Shown here in pieces: positions 1-7,345 of a stretch of 39,221 nt of DNA (position 1 is its first letter; each line of letters begins with the position of its first letter). This stretch comes from Gammaproteobacteria bacterium (GTDB lineage Bacteria > Pseudomonadota > Gammaproteobacteria > Pseudomonadales > JAHEGP01): the NCBI GenBank assembly GCA_030618705.1, contig JAUXCW010000003.1, positions 1-39,221 on the forward strand, given 5' to 3'. The translations under genes and the position numbers were made by a program. The notes under the pieces were generated by a model. That model saw nothing but the letters and a program-made list of their open reading frames with translations, had not been told where the DNA came from and did no database searches.

Positions 1-1445
1 ACAGGCGTGCTGATTTCGAGTCCCTGTTCGCCAGTCTGGAAGGTTTTGGCATCAAGCGAGATACGCTCTACTTGAGCTGGGACTTCACCGTCGCCTCCAC
101 CACCAACACCACCCGCCGCATCTTGCATATGCGAGATAGCTCCCTCGCGAACCTCGCCGCAGCCGCACCAGCGATAAGCATCGACAGTGTGGAGGAAAAT
201 ACCGTGGCGGAAGACCCCAATTGGGCCAGGTTTATCAAAGGCACTATCACCGTGCCGAATTTCCTCGATAGCGTCGATGGCGCCAGCGGCTCGAGATTGA
301 ATTATGCCGACAGTGACCCCGATGCACTGCCGGCGCAGTTTAACGGCGATGGCATGGTGGAAGTCCCCTTTGATTGCGGGATTCCCCACGCGGCGTTGGC
401 CGATGCGGGGGTCGGCACGGTAGATACCCGCGCGGTGGTGGTCGGGCACGGCTTGTTCGGCTCGCGAGAAATGGTCGCCCGCTTTGGAGAGATGGCCCAG
501 GAGCAGAACCTGTTTCTTTGCGGCATGGACTGGTGGGGAATGTCGTCCGCGGACTTCGGCACGACCTCCAACATCCTCGGCAATATCAACCTGTTCCCCT
601 CCCTCCCCGACCGGCTGCAACAGAGCTTCCTCAATATCATATTCCTGTCAGAGACCATGGTCAGGGCCGGTGGCTTCCAGGCGATGACTGAGTTCCAGAA
701 CGGCGCCGGGGTCGCCTTGTTCAAAACCGGCGAAGTGCATTTCGACGGTGTCTCCCAGGGTGCGGTACTCGGCGGGGCGCTTAGCGCCCTCAATCCCAAC
801 TTCAAGCGCACGGTACTCAATGTCGCCGGAACACGATTCAGTTTTTTATTGCGCCGCAGCAACGCCTGGAGCGATTACTCCAAAGTCTTCGATCCGGCCT
901 ATCCCGATGAGCTGGAACAACCGCTCATATTGTCGCTGACACAAATGCTGTGGGACCGGGCCGAAAACAATGGCTACGTCAACCATCTTACCCGTAACCC
1001 ACTGCCCGGCAGCGGCCTCACCCGGGTATTGATACACGTGGCGCTCGGGGACCAGACGGTAACGGAAACCAGTTCCGAAATACTGTCGCGTACACTCCAG
1101 GTTCAACGGCACAATCCCACCATCGTCGAGGGCAGGCACATCGCGGTCGAGCCCTATGTCGGCATCGAACCCATTTCGACCTATCCCCACGTGGGCAACG
1201 CGCTGGTGGTCTGGGACTCGGGGCCGTTCCCCACCGGGGGACATGACGGTACGCCACTGCAAACCGGCACCAACCAGCCGCAAACCGAGGGCTACAATAC
1301 CCACGCCATGCCGTTTTTCCAACGGGAGGCCCGCAATCAGAAAGCCCTTTTCTGGCGTAGCGGCCAGGTGGAAAACGTGTGCGGTGCAGCCCCGTGCTAC
1401 GGCGACGGCTACGACGGAACTCCCGGGGAGTACACGGCGCCGTAG
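1..1445 (+). CDS. Alpha/beta hydrolase (lipase/esterase-like), 5' truncated by window edge
   Basis: The frame is open from base 3 to the TAG at 1443, about 480 codons, so the TTG at 72 in the ORF track is not a convincing start and the gene begins upstream of the window. An alpha/beta-hydrolase core is visible: an oxyanion-type GHGLFG stretch, then the nucleophile elbow GVSQG (Ser at codon 228 counted from base 72), and a possible acid residue in ALGDQTV. The catalytic His is uncertain; THAMPF near the C-terminus is one candidate. The tail carries two close cysteines (VCGAAPCYG), which would suit an exported protein with a disulfide, but the N-terminus that would show a signal peptide is missing. 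It lies 142 bases upstream of a wax ester synthase, so a lipid substrate is plausible, but this is inferred from context. Confidence 0.7.
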   Translation, partial: RRADFESLFASLEGFGIKRDTLYLSWDFTVASTTNTTRRILHMRDSSLANLAAAAPAISIDSVEENTVAEDPNWARFIKGTITVPNFLDSVDGASGSRLNYADSDPDALPAQFNGDGMVEVPFDCGIPHAALADAGVGTVDTRAVVVGHGLFGSREMVARFGEMAQEQNLFLCGMDWWGMSSADFGTTSNILGNINLFPSLPDRLQQSFLNIIFLSETMVRAGGFQAMTEFQNGAGVALFKTGEVHFDGVSQGAVLGGALSALNPNFKRTVLNVAGTRFSFLLRRSNAWSDYSKVFDPAYPDELEQPLILSLTQMLWDRAENNGYVNHLTRNPLPGSGLTRVLIHVALGDQTVTETSSEILSRTLQVQRHNPTIVEGRHIAVEPYVGIEPISTYPHVGNALVVWDSGPFPTGGHDGTPLQTGTNQPQTEGYNTHAMPFFQREARNQKALFWRSGQVENVCGAAPCYGDGYDGTPGEYTAP

Positions 1446-1587: not shown

Positions 1588-3177
1588 ATGCAACAGCTAA
1601 GTGGCCAGGATGCGATGTTCCTCCATGTCGAGCTCGACGGGCTGCCCCAGCACATCGGCGGTGTCAGTATCTACGACCAGTCCACCGCCCCCGGCGGCAA
1701 GGTGCGCTTTAAACAGATTCTCGCATTGCTGAAAAGTCGCTTGCATCTCTCGCCGATCTTTCGCCGCAAACTGCTCACTGTGCCCTGGGGGCTGGATCGG
1801 CCCTACTGGATCGAAGACCCCGATTTCGACCTTGAGTACCATGTCAGGCATATTGCCTTACCCGCCCCGGGGGATTGGCGACAACTGTGTATATTGAATT
1901 CGCGCCTGCACTCGCAGCCCCTGGTTCGCGATAAACCGCTTTGGGAGATGTATGTCATCGAAGGGCTCAACAATGTCGAAGGCCTGCCGCCAAATTGCTT
2001 TGCTGTTATGACGAAAATACACCACGCCGCCATGGACGGCGCCTCGGGAGCGCAGATGTTCGGGCTGATACACGACCTCAGCCCGGAAGTACAAGAGGTA
2101 GAACCCGGTCCGCTGCACACCGAGAGACAGCCCAATAATATTGAACTGCTCACCCGCGCCTACGTCAACGGGCTGCGCAAACCCAAACAGGTATACAAGC
2201 TTTTACAGCAAGCCGCTCCCGCTTTCAGGCGGATTCGTCAAGGCAAGACAAAGCAAGACTTCAAAAGCCTGGAAGACAAACAGACAACCCGCTTCCAGGG
2301 AGATATATCCCCCCATCGTGTGGTCGACTCGGCAAAGTTTGATTTTCAACAGATACGCGCCATCAAGAATAGCCAACCGGGCACGACGGTGAACGATGTC
2401 ATGCTGACTATCGTTTCCGGCGCACTGCGCCAGTACCTGGCCAGCAAGAATGAGCTGCCGGAGCAAACCCTGGTCACTGGCTGCCCCATCGATGTTCGCT
2501 CCGAAGACGAGCGCAATGCAGGTGGCAACATGGTCGGCTTTATGAATGTTTCCCTGTGCTCCGACATCGAGGATCCGGCTGAGCGCATGGCTGCCATCCA
2601 TCAGGAGGCCGTCGAGGCCAAGGCCTACGCCCAGGCTCTGGGCCCACGCATCATGATGGATCTGACGGACGTCATTCCCGGCAATGTACTCTCTCTTGCC
2701 CTCAGGGGAGCCGCTGCCACCAATTTGACCCAGGCCAATGTGGTTCACAACACCATCGTCACCAATGTTCCTGGCGCCCCGTTCCAGCTCTATTTTTGCG
2801 GGGCGCGATTGGTCGACGCCATCAGTTTTGGCCCGTTACTACCCAATGTCGGCCTGTTTCATATCGTCTACAGCTCGGTAATGAATAAGCAGGGCACTAT
2901 CAGTATTTCGATTACCGCCGATCGCAATATGATGCCCGACCCCGCTTTTTATACCCAGTGTCTGCTGGATTCATTCGCCCTGCTGGAACAGGCGACCCTC
3001 GGCACCCGCAAGCGAAAAAAGTCTTCTACCACTAAGCGCAAAAAGGCGCCGGCAAAAAGCCGCACTCAAGCCGCCCGCAAAGCCGCCGCCAGGCCCCGCA
3101 GCAAGTCTGCCACCAGCGTAAAACCCAAGGCCAAGCCCAGGGCCAGGTCAAAAACCAGGGCGAAGGCCGGCGCATAA
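1588..3177 (+). CDS. Wax ester synthase/diacylglycerol acyltransferase (WS/DGAT) with histone-like basic tail
   Basis: This enzyme family joins acyl-CoA to a fatty alcohol or diacylglycerol to make wax esters or triacylglycerol at the inner membrane and on lipid inclusions. The active-site motif HHAAMDG is at residues 145-151, preceded by a PLW segment (RDKPLWEMYVIEGL) and followed by the conserved ND motif (TTVNDVMLTIVSGAL). I chose ATG 1588 (529 aa) over the tracked 1525 start because AAAGGA lies 7 bases upstream and the product then starts MQQLSGQDAMFLHVE, as is usual in the family. After the enzyme core, about the last 57 residues are almost only K, R, A, S, T and P, unlike ordinary WS/DGATs and similar to histone H1 or PhaF/AlgP tails. 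A thioesterase follows after 45 bases, probably in the same transcript. Confidence 0.93.
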   Translation: MQQLSGQDAMFLHVELDGLPQHIGGVSIYDQSTAPGGKVRFKQILALLKSRLHLSPIFRRKLLTVPWGLDRPYWIEDPDFDLEYHVRHIALPAPGDWRQLCILNSRLHSQPLVRDKPLWEMYVIEGLNNVEGLPPNCFAVMTKIHHAAMDGASGAQMFGLIHDLSPEVQEVEPGPLHTERQPNNIELLTRAYVNGLRKPKQVYKLLQQAAPAFRRIRQGKTKQDFKSLEDKQTTRFQGDISPHRVVDSAKFDFQQIRAIKNSQPGTTVNDVMLTIVSGALRQYLASKNELPEQTLVTGCPIDVRSEDERNAGGNMVGFMNVSLCSDIEDPAERMAAIHQEAVEAKAYAQALGPRIMMDLTDVIPGNVLSLALRGAAATNLTQANVVHNTIVTNVPGAPFQLYFCGARLVDAISFGPLLPNVGLFHIVYSSVMNKQGTISISITADRNMMPDPAFYTQCLLDSFALLEQATLGTRKRKKSSTTKRKKAPAKSRTQAARKAAARPRSKSATSVKPKAKPRARSKTRAKAGA

Positions 3178-3222: not shown

Positions 3223-3600
3223 TTGCCCGCTACTGAATACACCGAGCACCTCGACATTATCGATGTCGGGGTTCAGGAAAACGGCGATTACTGCGTCGAA
3301 ATTCGCTTGCAGCCCCTGCACCTGAGTCGAGCGGGCCTGGTTCACGGTGGCATGGTATTCACCCTGCTCGATGCCGCCATGGGCCGTGCGGTTATCCACA
3401 CGCTGGAACCCGGATTCACCAGCCCCACCATCGAGATGAAAATAAATTTTTTTCGCCCTGCCGATAGCGGTATGCTCCTCGCCCGGGGCAGAATCATCAA
3501 CCGCAGCAAACAGCTCTGCTATGCGGAGGGCGAAGTTCGCAGCGGTGCCGACAAGTTGATTGCCCGCGCCACCGGCACCTTTTTTATCAAACCGCTTTGA
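3223..3600 (+). CDS. PaaI-family hotdog thioesterase
   Basis: A 125-residue single hotdog domain, the normal size for PaaI/YdiI-type acyl-CoA thioesterases. The hallmark is LVHGGMVFTLLDAAMG: the HGG turn and the Asp/Ala helix that form the thioester site. It also has the typical later strands (SPTIEMKINFFRPA and YAEGEVRS). The start is TTG: an in-frame TGA lies at 3217-3219, and GGAG is placed 7 bases before the TTG. It sits just downstream of the WS/DGAT and is probably co-transcribed, so it may hydrolyse acyl-CoA and balance the pool used for neutral lipid synthesis. The substrate itself cannot be read from the sequence. Confidence 0.88.
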   Translation: MPATEYTEHLDIIDVGVQENGDYCVEIRLQPLHLSRAGLVHGGMVFTLLDAAMGRAVIHTLEPGFTSPTIEMKINFFRPADSGMLLARGRIINRSKQLCYAEGEVRSGADKLIARATGTFFIKPL

Positions 3601-3713: not shown

Positions 3714-5864
3714 ATGCCTCACCTGGTAGATTACCGTAATGGACGAGAGTCGGCCTTTGCCTGCCTGGCACTGATCGCACACTTTCACCAGATAGCCGCC
3801 GATCCGGCTCAACTGCTCCACGAGTTCGGGGGAGTCGATCCCACACCGGGCACCGATGAATTACTCCGTTGCGCGAAAGGACTCGGACTGAAAACCCGGC
3901 TTTTCCGCAATCTGGAAACGAAGAAGCTCTCGACCGCGCCACTGCCGGCGATTGCGCGGATGAGCGACGGCCATTTCGTCGTCATCGCCAAATTTGGCGG
4001 CGATAAAATCCTCTTGCAGGACCCCCGGGAACAGCGCCCGCAGAGCGTACCCCTGCAACTGTTCGAGAAAAACTGGACCGGCGAGTTACTCCTCCTTACT
4101 CACCGACACCGCCCCGCAAAGGCGACCGGACGCTTCAATATCCGCTGGTTCCTGCCCACCATGTACAAGTACCGGCGCTATTTCGGCGAGGTCTTACTGG
4201 CATCGTTTTTCCTCCAGCTGTTCGCCCTGGCGACTCCCCTATTTTTCCAGGTTGTCATCGACAAGGTGCTGGTACACGGCGGGCTCACAACCCTCGACGT
4301 CCTCGCCGTGGGCTTGCTCGCAATTTCCGTCTTCGAGGTGCTTTTAACCACGCTGCGTAATTTTTTACTGGCACATACCAGTAACAGAATCGACGTAACA
4401 CTAGGCGCAAAGTTGTTTCAGCACCTGCTCTGCCTGCCCACCAGTTATTTTAAAGCCAGGTGTGTAGGAGACACCGTGGCCCGCGTCAGGGAACTCGACA
4501 CGATTCGCCAGCTGATAACCGGGTCCAGCCTGACGGTGGTGATCGACCTGCTGTTCACTGTCATCTTTTTCGTGCTCATGTATTGCTACAGCCCGCGACT
4601 GTTCCTCATCGTGTTGTTGTCCCTGCCGTTCTACATCGTTCTTTCCCTGATACTGACGCCCCTGCTGCGCGACAAACTGCAGAAAAAGTTCCAACGCGGG
4701 GCCGAAAACCAGGCGTTCCTGGTGGAAGCGGTGCACGGCATCGATACCGTTAAATCCATGGCGGTAGAGCCCCAGATGCAGCGCCACTGGGAAAACCAGC
4801 TCGCCGCCTATGTCAGTGCCTCTTTCAGTGCCAGCAAACTCGGCAACATAGGCAGCCAATTGGCCGGCCTGGTCAGCAAACTCTGTAGCATCCTGATCCT
4901 CTGGTCGGGCGCGACACTGGTCATAGGGGGTTCACTGTCGGTCGGGCAGTTAATCGCTTTTAATATGTTCGCCGCAAGGGTCAGCGCTCCGGTGTTGCGC
5001 CTGGTGCAGCTATGGCAGGATTTCCAGCAGGCCGGAATAGCCATTGAAAGGCTCGGCGATATTCTCAACGCCCCGACAGAGCCGGGCTATAACCCAAATC
5101 GGAACTCCCTGCCACGACTGCAGGGCTGCATCGAACTCGATCACGTCAGCTTCCGCTACCAGGCGGATAGCAGTGACGTCTTGCAGGACATCAGCGTGCG
5201 GCTGGAGGCAGGTGAAGTCGTGGGTATCGTCGGCCAATCCGGCTCGGGCAAAAGCACCTTGACCAACTTGATTCAACGACTCTATACCCCCTGCCAGGGG
5301 CGCGTGAGTATCGACGGTATCGACCTGGCGCTGGTCCAGACCGCCTGGTTGCGCCGCCAGATTGGTGTGGTACAGCAGGAGAGCTTTTTGTTTAATCGCA
5401 GCGTAAGGGAAAACATAGCGCTGGTGAATCCGGATACCGGTCTGGAGACAATCATCGCCGCGGCAAAAATAGCCGGCGCCCATGAATTTATCTGCGAGTT
5501 ACCCGAGGGTTACGACACCCTTGTCGGCGAACAGGGCGGCAGGCTCTCAGGCGGTCAAAAACAGCGCCTCGCTATCGCACGCGCCCTGATCGAGGATCCA
5601 CGCATCCTGATATTCGACGAGGCCACCAGCGCGCTCGATTACGAATCGGAATTTAAAATACAGCAGAATATGAACAGTATCTGTAAAGACCGCACGGTAC
5701 TGATAGTGGCCCATCGCCTGTCGACGGTGCGCCATGCGGATCGAATCCTGGTGATGGACAAGGGCCGAATCGTCGAGCAGGGGAGTCACCAACAACTCCT
5801 CGCCCGCGGGGGAATCTACGCCAGGCTTTATGCCTACCAGGGCGGGCTCGCGGAACGGGCTTAG
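3714..5864 (+). CDS. Type I secretion ABC transporter with inactive C39-like N-terminal domain (HlyB/LapB type)
   Basis: Inner-membrane ATPase/permease of a type I secretion system, 716 aa, the usual HlyB length. Residues 1-130 are a C39-like domain. The catalytic Cys position of C39 peptidases aligns with Ser13 (ESAFACLALI), while the His (DGHFVVIAK, His87) and the following LQDP are kept. It is therefore probably a substrate-docking domain, as in HlyB, not a leader peptidase. A six-helix membrane region spans about 150-450. The ATPase has Walker A GQSGSGKST (507-515), LSGGQ (611-615), Walker B ILIFDEA (Asp635, Glu636) and H-loop His667. Start ATG 3714 has AGGG about 5 bases upstream. The adaptor gene follows after 80 bases. 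No substrate gene is in the window. Confidence 0.93.
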   Translation: MPHLVDYRNGRESAFACLALIAHFHQIAADPAQLLHEFGGVDPTPGTDELLRCAKGLGLKTRLFRNLETKKLSTAPLPAIARMSDGHFVVIAKFGGDKILLQDPREQRPQSVPLQLFEKNWTGELLLLTHRHRPAKATGRFNIRWFLPTMYKYRRYFGEVLLASFFLQLFALATPLFFQVVIDKVLVHGGLTTLDVLAVGLLAISVFEVLLTTLRNFLLAHTSNRIDVTLGAKLFQHLLCLPTSYFKARCVGDTVARVRELDTIRQLITGSSLTVVIDLLFTVIFFVLMYCYSPRLFLIVLLSLPFYIVLSLILTPLLRDKLQKKFQRGAENQAFLVEAVHGIDTVKSMAVEPQMQRHWENQLAAYVSASFSASKLGNIGSQLAGLVSKLCSILILWSGATLVIGGSLSVGQLIAFNMFAARVSAPVLRLVQLWQDFQQAGIAIERLGDILNAPTEPGYNPNRNSLPRLQGCIELDHVSFRYQADSSDVLQDISVRLEAGEVVGIVGQSGSGKSTLTNLIQRLYTPCQGRVSIDGIDLALVQTAWLRRQIGVVQQESFLFNRSVRENIALVNPDTGLETIIAAAKIAGAHEFICELPEGYDTLVGEQGGRLSGGQKQRLAIARALIEDPRILIFDEATSALDYESEFKIQQNMNSICKDRTVLIVAHRLSTVRHADRILVMDKGRIVEQGSHQQLLARGGIYARLYAYQGGLAERA

Positions 5865-5903
5865 CGCTGTAGGGCAAAATTTATTTGTTTCGATTAAGTA
5901 AGC

Positions 5904-5921
5904 ACCACTGGATCCAGTGGT
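5904..5921. repeat. 18-bp perfect palindrome between the ABC transporter and HlyD-type genes
   Basis: ACCACTGGATCCAGTGGT is its own reverse complement over all 18 bases, centred on GGATCC. It lies 39 bases after the transporter stop and 23 bases before the adaptor start. As RNA it could fold into a 7-bp stem with a GATC loop. It could be an operator or an mRNA processing or attenuation element. No T-run follows, so it does not look like a Rho-independent terminator. Confidence 0.55.
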
Positions 5922-5944
5922 TGTAAATATCACGGGAATAGAGC

Positions 5945-7345
5945 ATGTCAGCACAGGATCATCAAGGTAGTAAGAAAATCGAGCGGGCTGGCGACGACAA
6001 GCAATTCTATGCGTTTCTCCCCGCGGCTATCGAAATCGAGCGAACGCCCCCACCCGTCTATAGCCGGCTAATTCTCTGGGGTATTCTCAGCCTGGTGGTA
6101 TTGAGCCTGGCATGGGCCTGGTTCGGCAGGGTGGATATCGTCGCGGTAGCGCCGGGAAAAATCATTCCATTGGGGCAGGTAAAAATTATCCAGCCAGCCG
6201 AACGTGGCGTCATCAACCACATCCATGTGCGTGAGGGCCAGGCGGTAAAAGCCGGCGATGTGTTGCTCAGCCTGGATGCCGCGTCGATCGATGCGGACGT
6301 CAAACGCCTTGGCCACGACTTGAATGAAGCCCGGGCGCTATGGTTAATCGAATCGGCCTACAGGCAATACATCGAGAATCCCCATGACAGGCCCAGCGGG
6401 CCCGACGAGTTGGCAACCATGGCACGAACCCTGGACCTGCCCATGCCCATCGAGAACATCGAACATGCGAGCCTTGTACTGGAAGAACGAGTGGCGGAGT
6501 ACCGGTCGGGGCTCGCCGTTCTGGCAGAGCAGCGTTTAACGCTGGAATCGGAAAAAAACGCCGCTTCGACCTCGCTGCACCGCTACCAGCTAACGCTGCC
6601 AATTGTCCGCGAGCGCGCCGATTCCCACAAAGCACTGTATGCGCGTCACCTGGTGTCGAAAGACCTCTACCTCCAGTTAGAGCAGCAACACATCGAACAG
6701 CAGCAGGCCTACAATGCCGAGCAATTCAAAATCGCGGCGCTAGGGGCCCGCATAGCGGAGATCGATGCCAATACATCCCTGCTCAAGGGGCAACAGTCCG
6801 TGCGCAATCTCGAAGCGCTCAGCGAGCACAGGGGGCAGGCCTATGCGCTGCGCCAAACCCTTGGCCAGGCACAGATCAGGCAGCGGCAAACCCGCTTGCG
6901 GGCGCCAATCGACGGCACGGTACAGCAACTGAAGATTCACACCATCGGCGGGATCGTTACGCCCGCGGAAACGCTGATGTTGCTGATACCCGACAGCGCC
7001 ACCCTGGAAATCGAAACCTGGATCAGCAATCACGACATCGGCTTCGTCCATGAAGGCCAGCTCACCGCGGTTAAAGTCGATACCTTTGACTTCACCCGGT
7101 ACGGCGCAATCGAGGGCGAACTGAGACTGCTGTCTGCGGATGCCGTGGTAAAAGAAAACCAGGGGCTGGTCTATCCCGCCAGGGTCAGCCTGTCAAAAAG
7201 CAGCCTTGCCATCGGCGATAAGGATATCGAACTGAGCCCCGGCATGGCGGTGACGGTGGAAATCAAAATCGGAACACGGCGTATTCTCGAATTCTTTATG
7301 GCGCCGCTACTCAAGTTTACCAGCGAAAGCCTTCGTGAGCGCTAG
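5945..7345 (+). CDS. HlyD-family type I secretion membrane fusion (adaptor) protein
   Basis: Periplasmic adaptor linking the ABC transporter to a TolC-like outer membrane channel, 466 aa, a usual length for HlyD/PrtE proteins. A short cytoplasmic N-terminus is followed by one membrane helix at about residues 41-60 (RLILWGILSLVVLSLAWAWF). Next comes the first half of the lipoyl/barrel-sandwich domain (VAPGKIIPLGQVKIIQPAE, then VREGQAVKAGDVLLSLD), a long helical hairpin (about 95-310), the second lipoyl half (RLRAPIDGTVQQLKIHTIGG) and a C-terminal beta-barrel ending near GTRRILEFFMAPLLK. Start ATG 5945 has a weak purine-rich site (GGGAATAG). The next gene is convergent and ends 16 bases beyond the stop. 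Confidence 0.93.
   Translation: MSAQDHQGSKKIERAGDDKQFYAFLPAAIEIERTPPPVYSRLILWGILSLVVLSLAWAWFGRVDIVAVAPGKIIPLGQVKIIQPAERGVINHIHVREGQAVKAGDVLLSLDAASIDADVKRLGHDLNEARALWLIESAYRQYIENPHDRPSGPDELATMARTLDLPMPIENIEHASLVLEERVAEYRSGLAVLAEQRLTLESEKNAASTSLHRYQLTLPIVRERADSHKALYARHLVSKDLYLQLEQQHIEQQQAYNAEQFKIAALGARIAEIDANTSLLKGQQSVRNLEALSEHRGQAYALRQTLGQAQIRQRQTRLRAPIDGTVQQLKIHTIGGIVTPAETLMLLIPDSATLEIETWISNHDIGFVHEGQLTAVKVDTFDFTRYGAIEGELRLLSADAVVKENQGLVYPARVSLSKSSLAIGDKDIELSPGMAVTVEIKIGTRRILEFFMAPLLKFTSESLRER

Follow-up and report, generated by a model that had tools for sequence, protein, structure and literature searches.

The tail of PhaF from Pseudomonas putida binds DNA non-specifically, and PhaF positions polyhydroxyalkanoate (PHA) granules (PMC5658603). 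In Rhodococcus jostii RHA1, the C-terminal lysine-rich region of MLDS links lipid droplets to DNA, and DNA binding is lost when its C-terminal lysines are replaced by glutamate (PMC5504291). A histone H1-like K/P/A tail of AlgP is needed for the even spacing of polyphosphate granules in Pseudomonas aeruginosa (PMC9239181), and in Ralstonia eutropha PhaM couples a histone-like DNA-binding region to granule placement (reviewed in PMC13052382). The 2025 review of organelle positioning that describes PhaM covers PHB and polyphosphate granules, lipid droplets, wax ester and MLDS being absent from it by term search (PMC13052382). The placement of lipid droplets in bacteria, and their sharing at division, are poorly known outside Rhodococcus.

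The window analysed here, a stretch of 39,221 nucleotides corresponding to contig C12 of a 3.40-Mb draft genome of a marine bacterium that is 97% complete, carries a gene for a wax ester synthase/diacylglycerol acyltransferase (WS/DGAT) at 1588-3177 on the forward strand, reading from an ATG at 1588 to a stop codon at 3175-3177 (included in the coordinates) and giving a product of 529 amino acids. In a comparison based on this protein, the nearest named relatives fall in the Halieaceae (for example Haliea, Halioglobus and Seongchinamella). The protein matches TIGR02946 at 394.5 bits (cut-off 310) and both WS_DGAT domains (PF03007 and PF06974) above their curated cut-offs, a Pfam search returning no other domain; it is assigned to WS/DGAT by family, with wax ester/triacylglycerol (TAG) synthase activity predicted. 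The catalytic motif HHAAMDG (HHxxxDG) is read directly at residues 145-151 (2020-2040, forward strand), and its H145, H146 and D150 are invariant across the WS/DGAT alignment. Profile matches, reaching residue 469 for TIGR02946 and residue 466 for WS_DGAT_C, and an AlphaFold2 model place the folded core at residues 1-471 (1588-3000, forward strand), the last helix spanning residues 452-471. The nearest solved structures, both by sequence and by fold, are 6chj and 7nxg.

Beyond this core the chain continues for 58 residues (472-529; 3001-3174, forward strand) as a polycationic tail of net charge +24, in which 14 lysines and 10 arginines make up 41% of the residues and aspartate and glutamate are absent; K, R, A, S, T and P together account for 54 of the 58. 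The original prediction of an ordinary WS/DGAT core followed by about 57 residues of these six kinds is confirmed, and the predicted end at 3174 stands, the start moving from 2998 to 3001 since 2998 falls in codon 471, the leucine that closes the core. The excess of K+R is marked against the sampled proteome (binomial p = 1e-9; K+R 10.5% in the proteome), and the last 40 residues carry a net charge of +15, the proteome mean being +0.6 (sd 4.7). AlphaFold2 gives good confidence for the core and pLDDT below 50 for residues 476-529, and the tail is predicted to be disordered, as such low values would lead one to expect. Neither a frame artefact nor the expansion of a tandem repeat accounts for its origin, the five other frames of the same DNA giving no such protein and the tail DNA holding just two weak pairs of 12-17 nt. 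Its basic residues form three lag-3 pairs where 9.2 are expected, and it contains one AA[KR]P word, no KPAA, no regular AAKP/KPAA repeats and no PAKKA motif.

A gene for a hotdog-fold thioesterase (3223-3600, forward strand; TIGR00369/PF03061) lies 45 nt downstream of the WS/DGAT gene and is possibly co-transcribed with it. At 3714-7345 on the forward strand follow type I secretion genes for an HlyB that contains a C39-like domain and for HlyD, no obvious substrate gene adjoining them. A conserved operon with either the thioesterase or HlyB was considered and rejected, neither being found beside any of 90 related loci.

The original prediction handled this gene as special, a view that gives way to a family-wide one. 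Counted by catalytic domain, the source genome has 14 WS/DGAT genes, six tailless and eight that end in a basic tail of between roughly 20 and 95 residues: L003, L007, L008, L010 (the window gene), L011, L013, L014 and a gene whose pieces on contigs C243 and C246 are taken, from their overlapping sequence, to be one split gene. Most WS/DGATs of the same clade in relatives are tailed too, in Halieaceae (among them an orthologue, L087, from Haliea salexigens), Woeseiaceae, Sphingomonas, Parvibaculum and others, and the net tail charge is +5 or more in 95 of the 140 WS/DGATs compared. Tail length ranges from 20 to 170 residues across the family, and the orthologues L066, L070 and L075 have very short tails of about 10 residues with 6-8 K/R. 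On a core-only tree of the 140 proteins the tail was gained or lost at least 23 times, a rough count, the tree being a FastTree one with several long branches. Five orthologues that are 67-70% identical have no tail (L065, at 70%, L071, L074, L079 and L080). Because these orthologues end exactly where the tail begins, and a search beyond their stop codons for a decayed tail gave no K/R-rich remnant in line with it, the tail is, by sequence comparison, a modular add-on, and catalysis is probably independent of it. Close homologues without the tail had been named, jointly with the lack of a phenotype, as counting against the original prediction, and the first half of that pair is thus present. 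All five actinobacterial WS/DGATs sampled (plasmid copies; Rhodococcus, Mycolicibacterium and Nonomuraea) are tailless, and actinobacterial enzymes were set aside as candidate tail carriers. Within the wider Pseudomonadota just 20 of 199 genomes have a WS/DGAT, and the copies examined outside the clade are mostly tailless. Two lone tailed WS/DGATs, L204 (genome G200, of another family of the class) and L213 (genome G139, of another class of the phylum), suggest broader spread or independent acquisition.

A genome-wide habit of basic C-termini is ruled out by two background samples. Gene calling over about 239 kb of the source genome, in stretches that by design include WS/DGAT and phasin contigs, gave 164 genes, nine of them with strongly basic ends; six of the nine are WS/DGATs, two are phasins, and one is an ORF with scattered charges that resembles an AMP-dependent ligase at its start and end. 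Around 80 named loci, where gene calling was crude, a strict tail test picked out 27 of 74 WS/DGATs and 4 of the 414 ORFs next to them (p = 1e-20), one of the four being a DUF3336-patatin lipase and the remaining three looking like wrong-frame ORFs. Basic tails are concentrated on storage-lipid proteins.

The two phasins of the source genome are small PF05597-type proteins encoded in tandem on contig C77 (L153:196-627(-) and 736-1197(-)), each with a K/A/P-rich tail, one lying over the Pfam cut-off for PF05597 and the other just under it. A profile search of the same genome returned no match to PHA synthase (PF07167) and none to Phasin_2. Across 57 genomes of the order, PF05597 is present in 22 of the 25 with a WS/DGAT match compared with 3 of the 32 without (p = 1.5e-9), and with one genome per family alone, as a control for kinship, p is 8e-8; in the same 57 genomes PF05597 and PhaC show no association (p = 0.76). 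PF05597 phasins of this order may serve wax ester/TAG droplets. DUF3336-patatin lipases, relatives of eukaryotic droplet lipases, also co-occur with WS/DGAT (21 of 25 versus 2 of 32 genomes), and a few carry similar K/R/A/P/S/T tails (L093:6526-8175(+), L237 from the same genus as the source genome, and L252). The genome's own DUF3336 lipase, considered as a third tailed protein, is tailless although L237 is tailed. On a Caballeronia plasmid (L263), an annotated phasin gene (114-608) immediately precedes a WS/DGAT gene (680-2275), physically linking the two families, and neither protein carries a strongly basic tail. Because similar tails occur on several WS/DGAT paralogues and on two phasins, PHA synthase being undetected, we infer that the source genome holds the equivalent, for neutral lipids, of the PhaF/PHA-granule system.

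By analogy with PhaF, AlgP and MLDS, the tail may be a nucleoid-tethering one fused to the lipid synthase itself, a reading to which we give about an even chance. The ordinary WS/DGAT core would make wax ester and/or TAG at the membrane or droplet surface, and the flexible K/R/A/P/S/T tail would bind nucleic acid irrespective of its sequence, mainly the DNA of the chromosome, in the manner of the PhaF and MLDS tails. Because the enzyme would sit on the growing droplet, the tail would moor the droplet to the nucleoid, with the result that droplets would be spaced, their fusion limited and the droplets shared between daughter cells. DNA binding, droplet location and a part in segregation are inferred for the tail, and tethering appears its most likely function; MLDS, PhaF and AlgP are storage-granule proteins in which tails of this kind serve DNA binding or granule spacing. 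Counting against a tether are the tailless close orthologues, the six tailless paralogues and tailless DUF3336 lipase of the source genome, the lack of PAKKA and KPAA in the window tail, the five tailless actinobacterial enzymes, and the ability of polycationic tails to bind anionic membranes, RNA and polyphosphate as well.

The evolution of the tails bears on this choice. In 20 tail pairs, each tail sequence being used once and the expectation being taken from single-base changes at kappa 3, codons for K or R switched to the alternative basic residue in 42 cases against 19 expected and to D or E in two against 14 expected; by these counts tail charge is under constraint while tail sequence diverges. 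Charge kept without sequence is also what the strongest rival to a DNA tether would produce, namely binding to an anionic membrane or droplet surface, in which the tail is an electrostatic anchor on the anionic phospholipid of the inner membrane or droplet monolayer, boosting activity there and making DNA irrelevant. WS/DGAT acts at the membrane, the tailed patatin lipases likewise work on lipid surfaces, and the tails of about 10 residues in L066, L070 and L075 are enough for membrane attraction and short for a tether. We nonetheless regard such an anchor as unlikely, though a serious contender, as hydrophobic and aromatic residues are almost missing from the tails, the composition fits that of tails with demonstrated DNA binding, and the K/R spacing in 53 non-redundant tails is depleted at lag 3 (z -6.0) and enriched at lag 6 (z 8.5). 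This spacing, together with [KR]PAA and AA[KR]P words enriched about threefold over the family tails (z >5), is unlike that of an amphipathic helix and reminiscent of PhaF/AlgP tails. The at least 23 state changes, the spread of lengths from 20 to 170 residues and the close orthologues without a tail would also suit a nearly neutral low-complexity extension, easily gained and lost and of little function beyond solubility, an explanation made improbable by the avoidance of acidic substitutions, the non-random K/R spacing and the presence of tails on many paralogues and almost never on neighbouring genes. That the tail binds another polyanion, such as polyphosphate, RNA or ribosomes, or drives the condensation of storage proteins, DNA placement being secondary, is likewise improbable, for while polycations are promiscuous and AlgP with its similar tail associates with polyphosphate granules, phase separation being discussed by the authors (PMC9239181), the tails are concentrated on neutral-lipid proteins and no data point to polyphosphate or RNA.

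A nucleoid tether borne by the synthase would, if true, explain droplet positioning from birth, and the like tails on many sister enzymes and granule-coat proteins suggest that fat droplets may be moored to the chromosome in these bacteria. More tentatively, the synthases of Halieaceae and of several further lineages of proteobacteria might make up a nucleoid-tethered neutral-lipid organelle with PhaF-type phasins that carry tails and, in some cases, with tailed patatin lipases, in which the builder of the droplet also moors it and PF05597 phasins serve lipid droplets instead of PHA. The suggested assignment of the order's PF05597 phasins to wax ester/TAG storage rather than to PHA would, if true, change the annotation of many genomes.

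The likeness to PhaF and MLDS in the original prediction holds for composition, predicted disorder and the family-wide KPAA/AAKP enrichment, fails for the PAKKA and KPAA words missing from the window tail, and gains strength from the tailed phasins in a genome without a detected PHA synthase and from charge-preserving evolution. The window tail shares with PhaF and AlgP predicted disorder, a K/A/P-rich C-terminus and few acids, though not regular repeats, and no histone H1 globular winged-helix domain was found by Pfam in the window protein. PhaF, like the window protein, ends in a positively charged K/A/P-rich tail and is a storage-granule protein; it acts as a structural phasin of PHA granules, whereas the window tail sits on a synthase, for wax ester/TAG, that lacks the phasin domain PF05597, a PF05597-type domain being encoded by two further genes of the source genome. 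MLDS is a small, non-enzymatic, actinobacterial droplet-coat protein with PAKKA motifs, in contrast to a WS/DGAT enzyme without them. AlgP differs in serving polyphosphate granules, in its regular KPAA repeats and helical N-terminus and in missing an enzymatic domain, and PhaM is a separate granule protein, whereas the window tail is part of the synthase. The Marinobacter WS/DGAT (6chj) and AbWSD1 of Acinetobacter baylyi (7nxg) are homologous to the window protein in catalytic core and fold, but their chains of 455 and 463 residues are too short for a tail of this type. No report of basic tails on WS/DGATs was found in the literature searched, which left most subscription journals out of reach. 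The tail type and the enzyme are each known from described systems; their combination, its spread and the link to phasins appear to be new.
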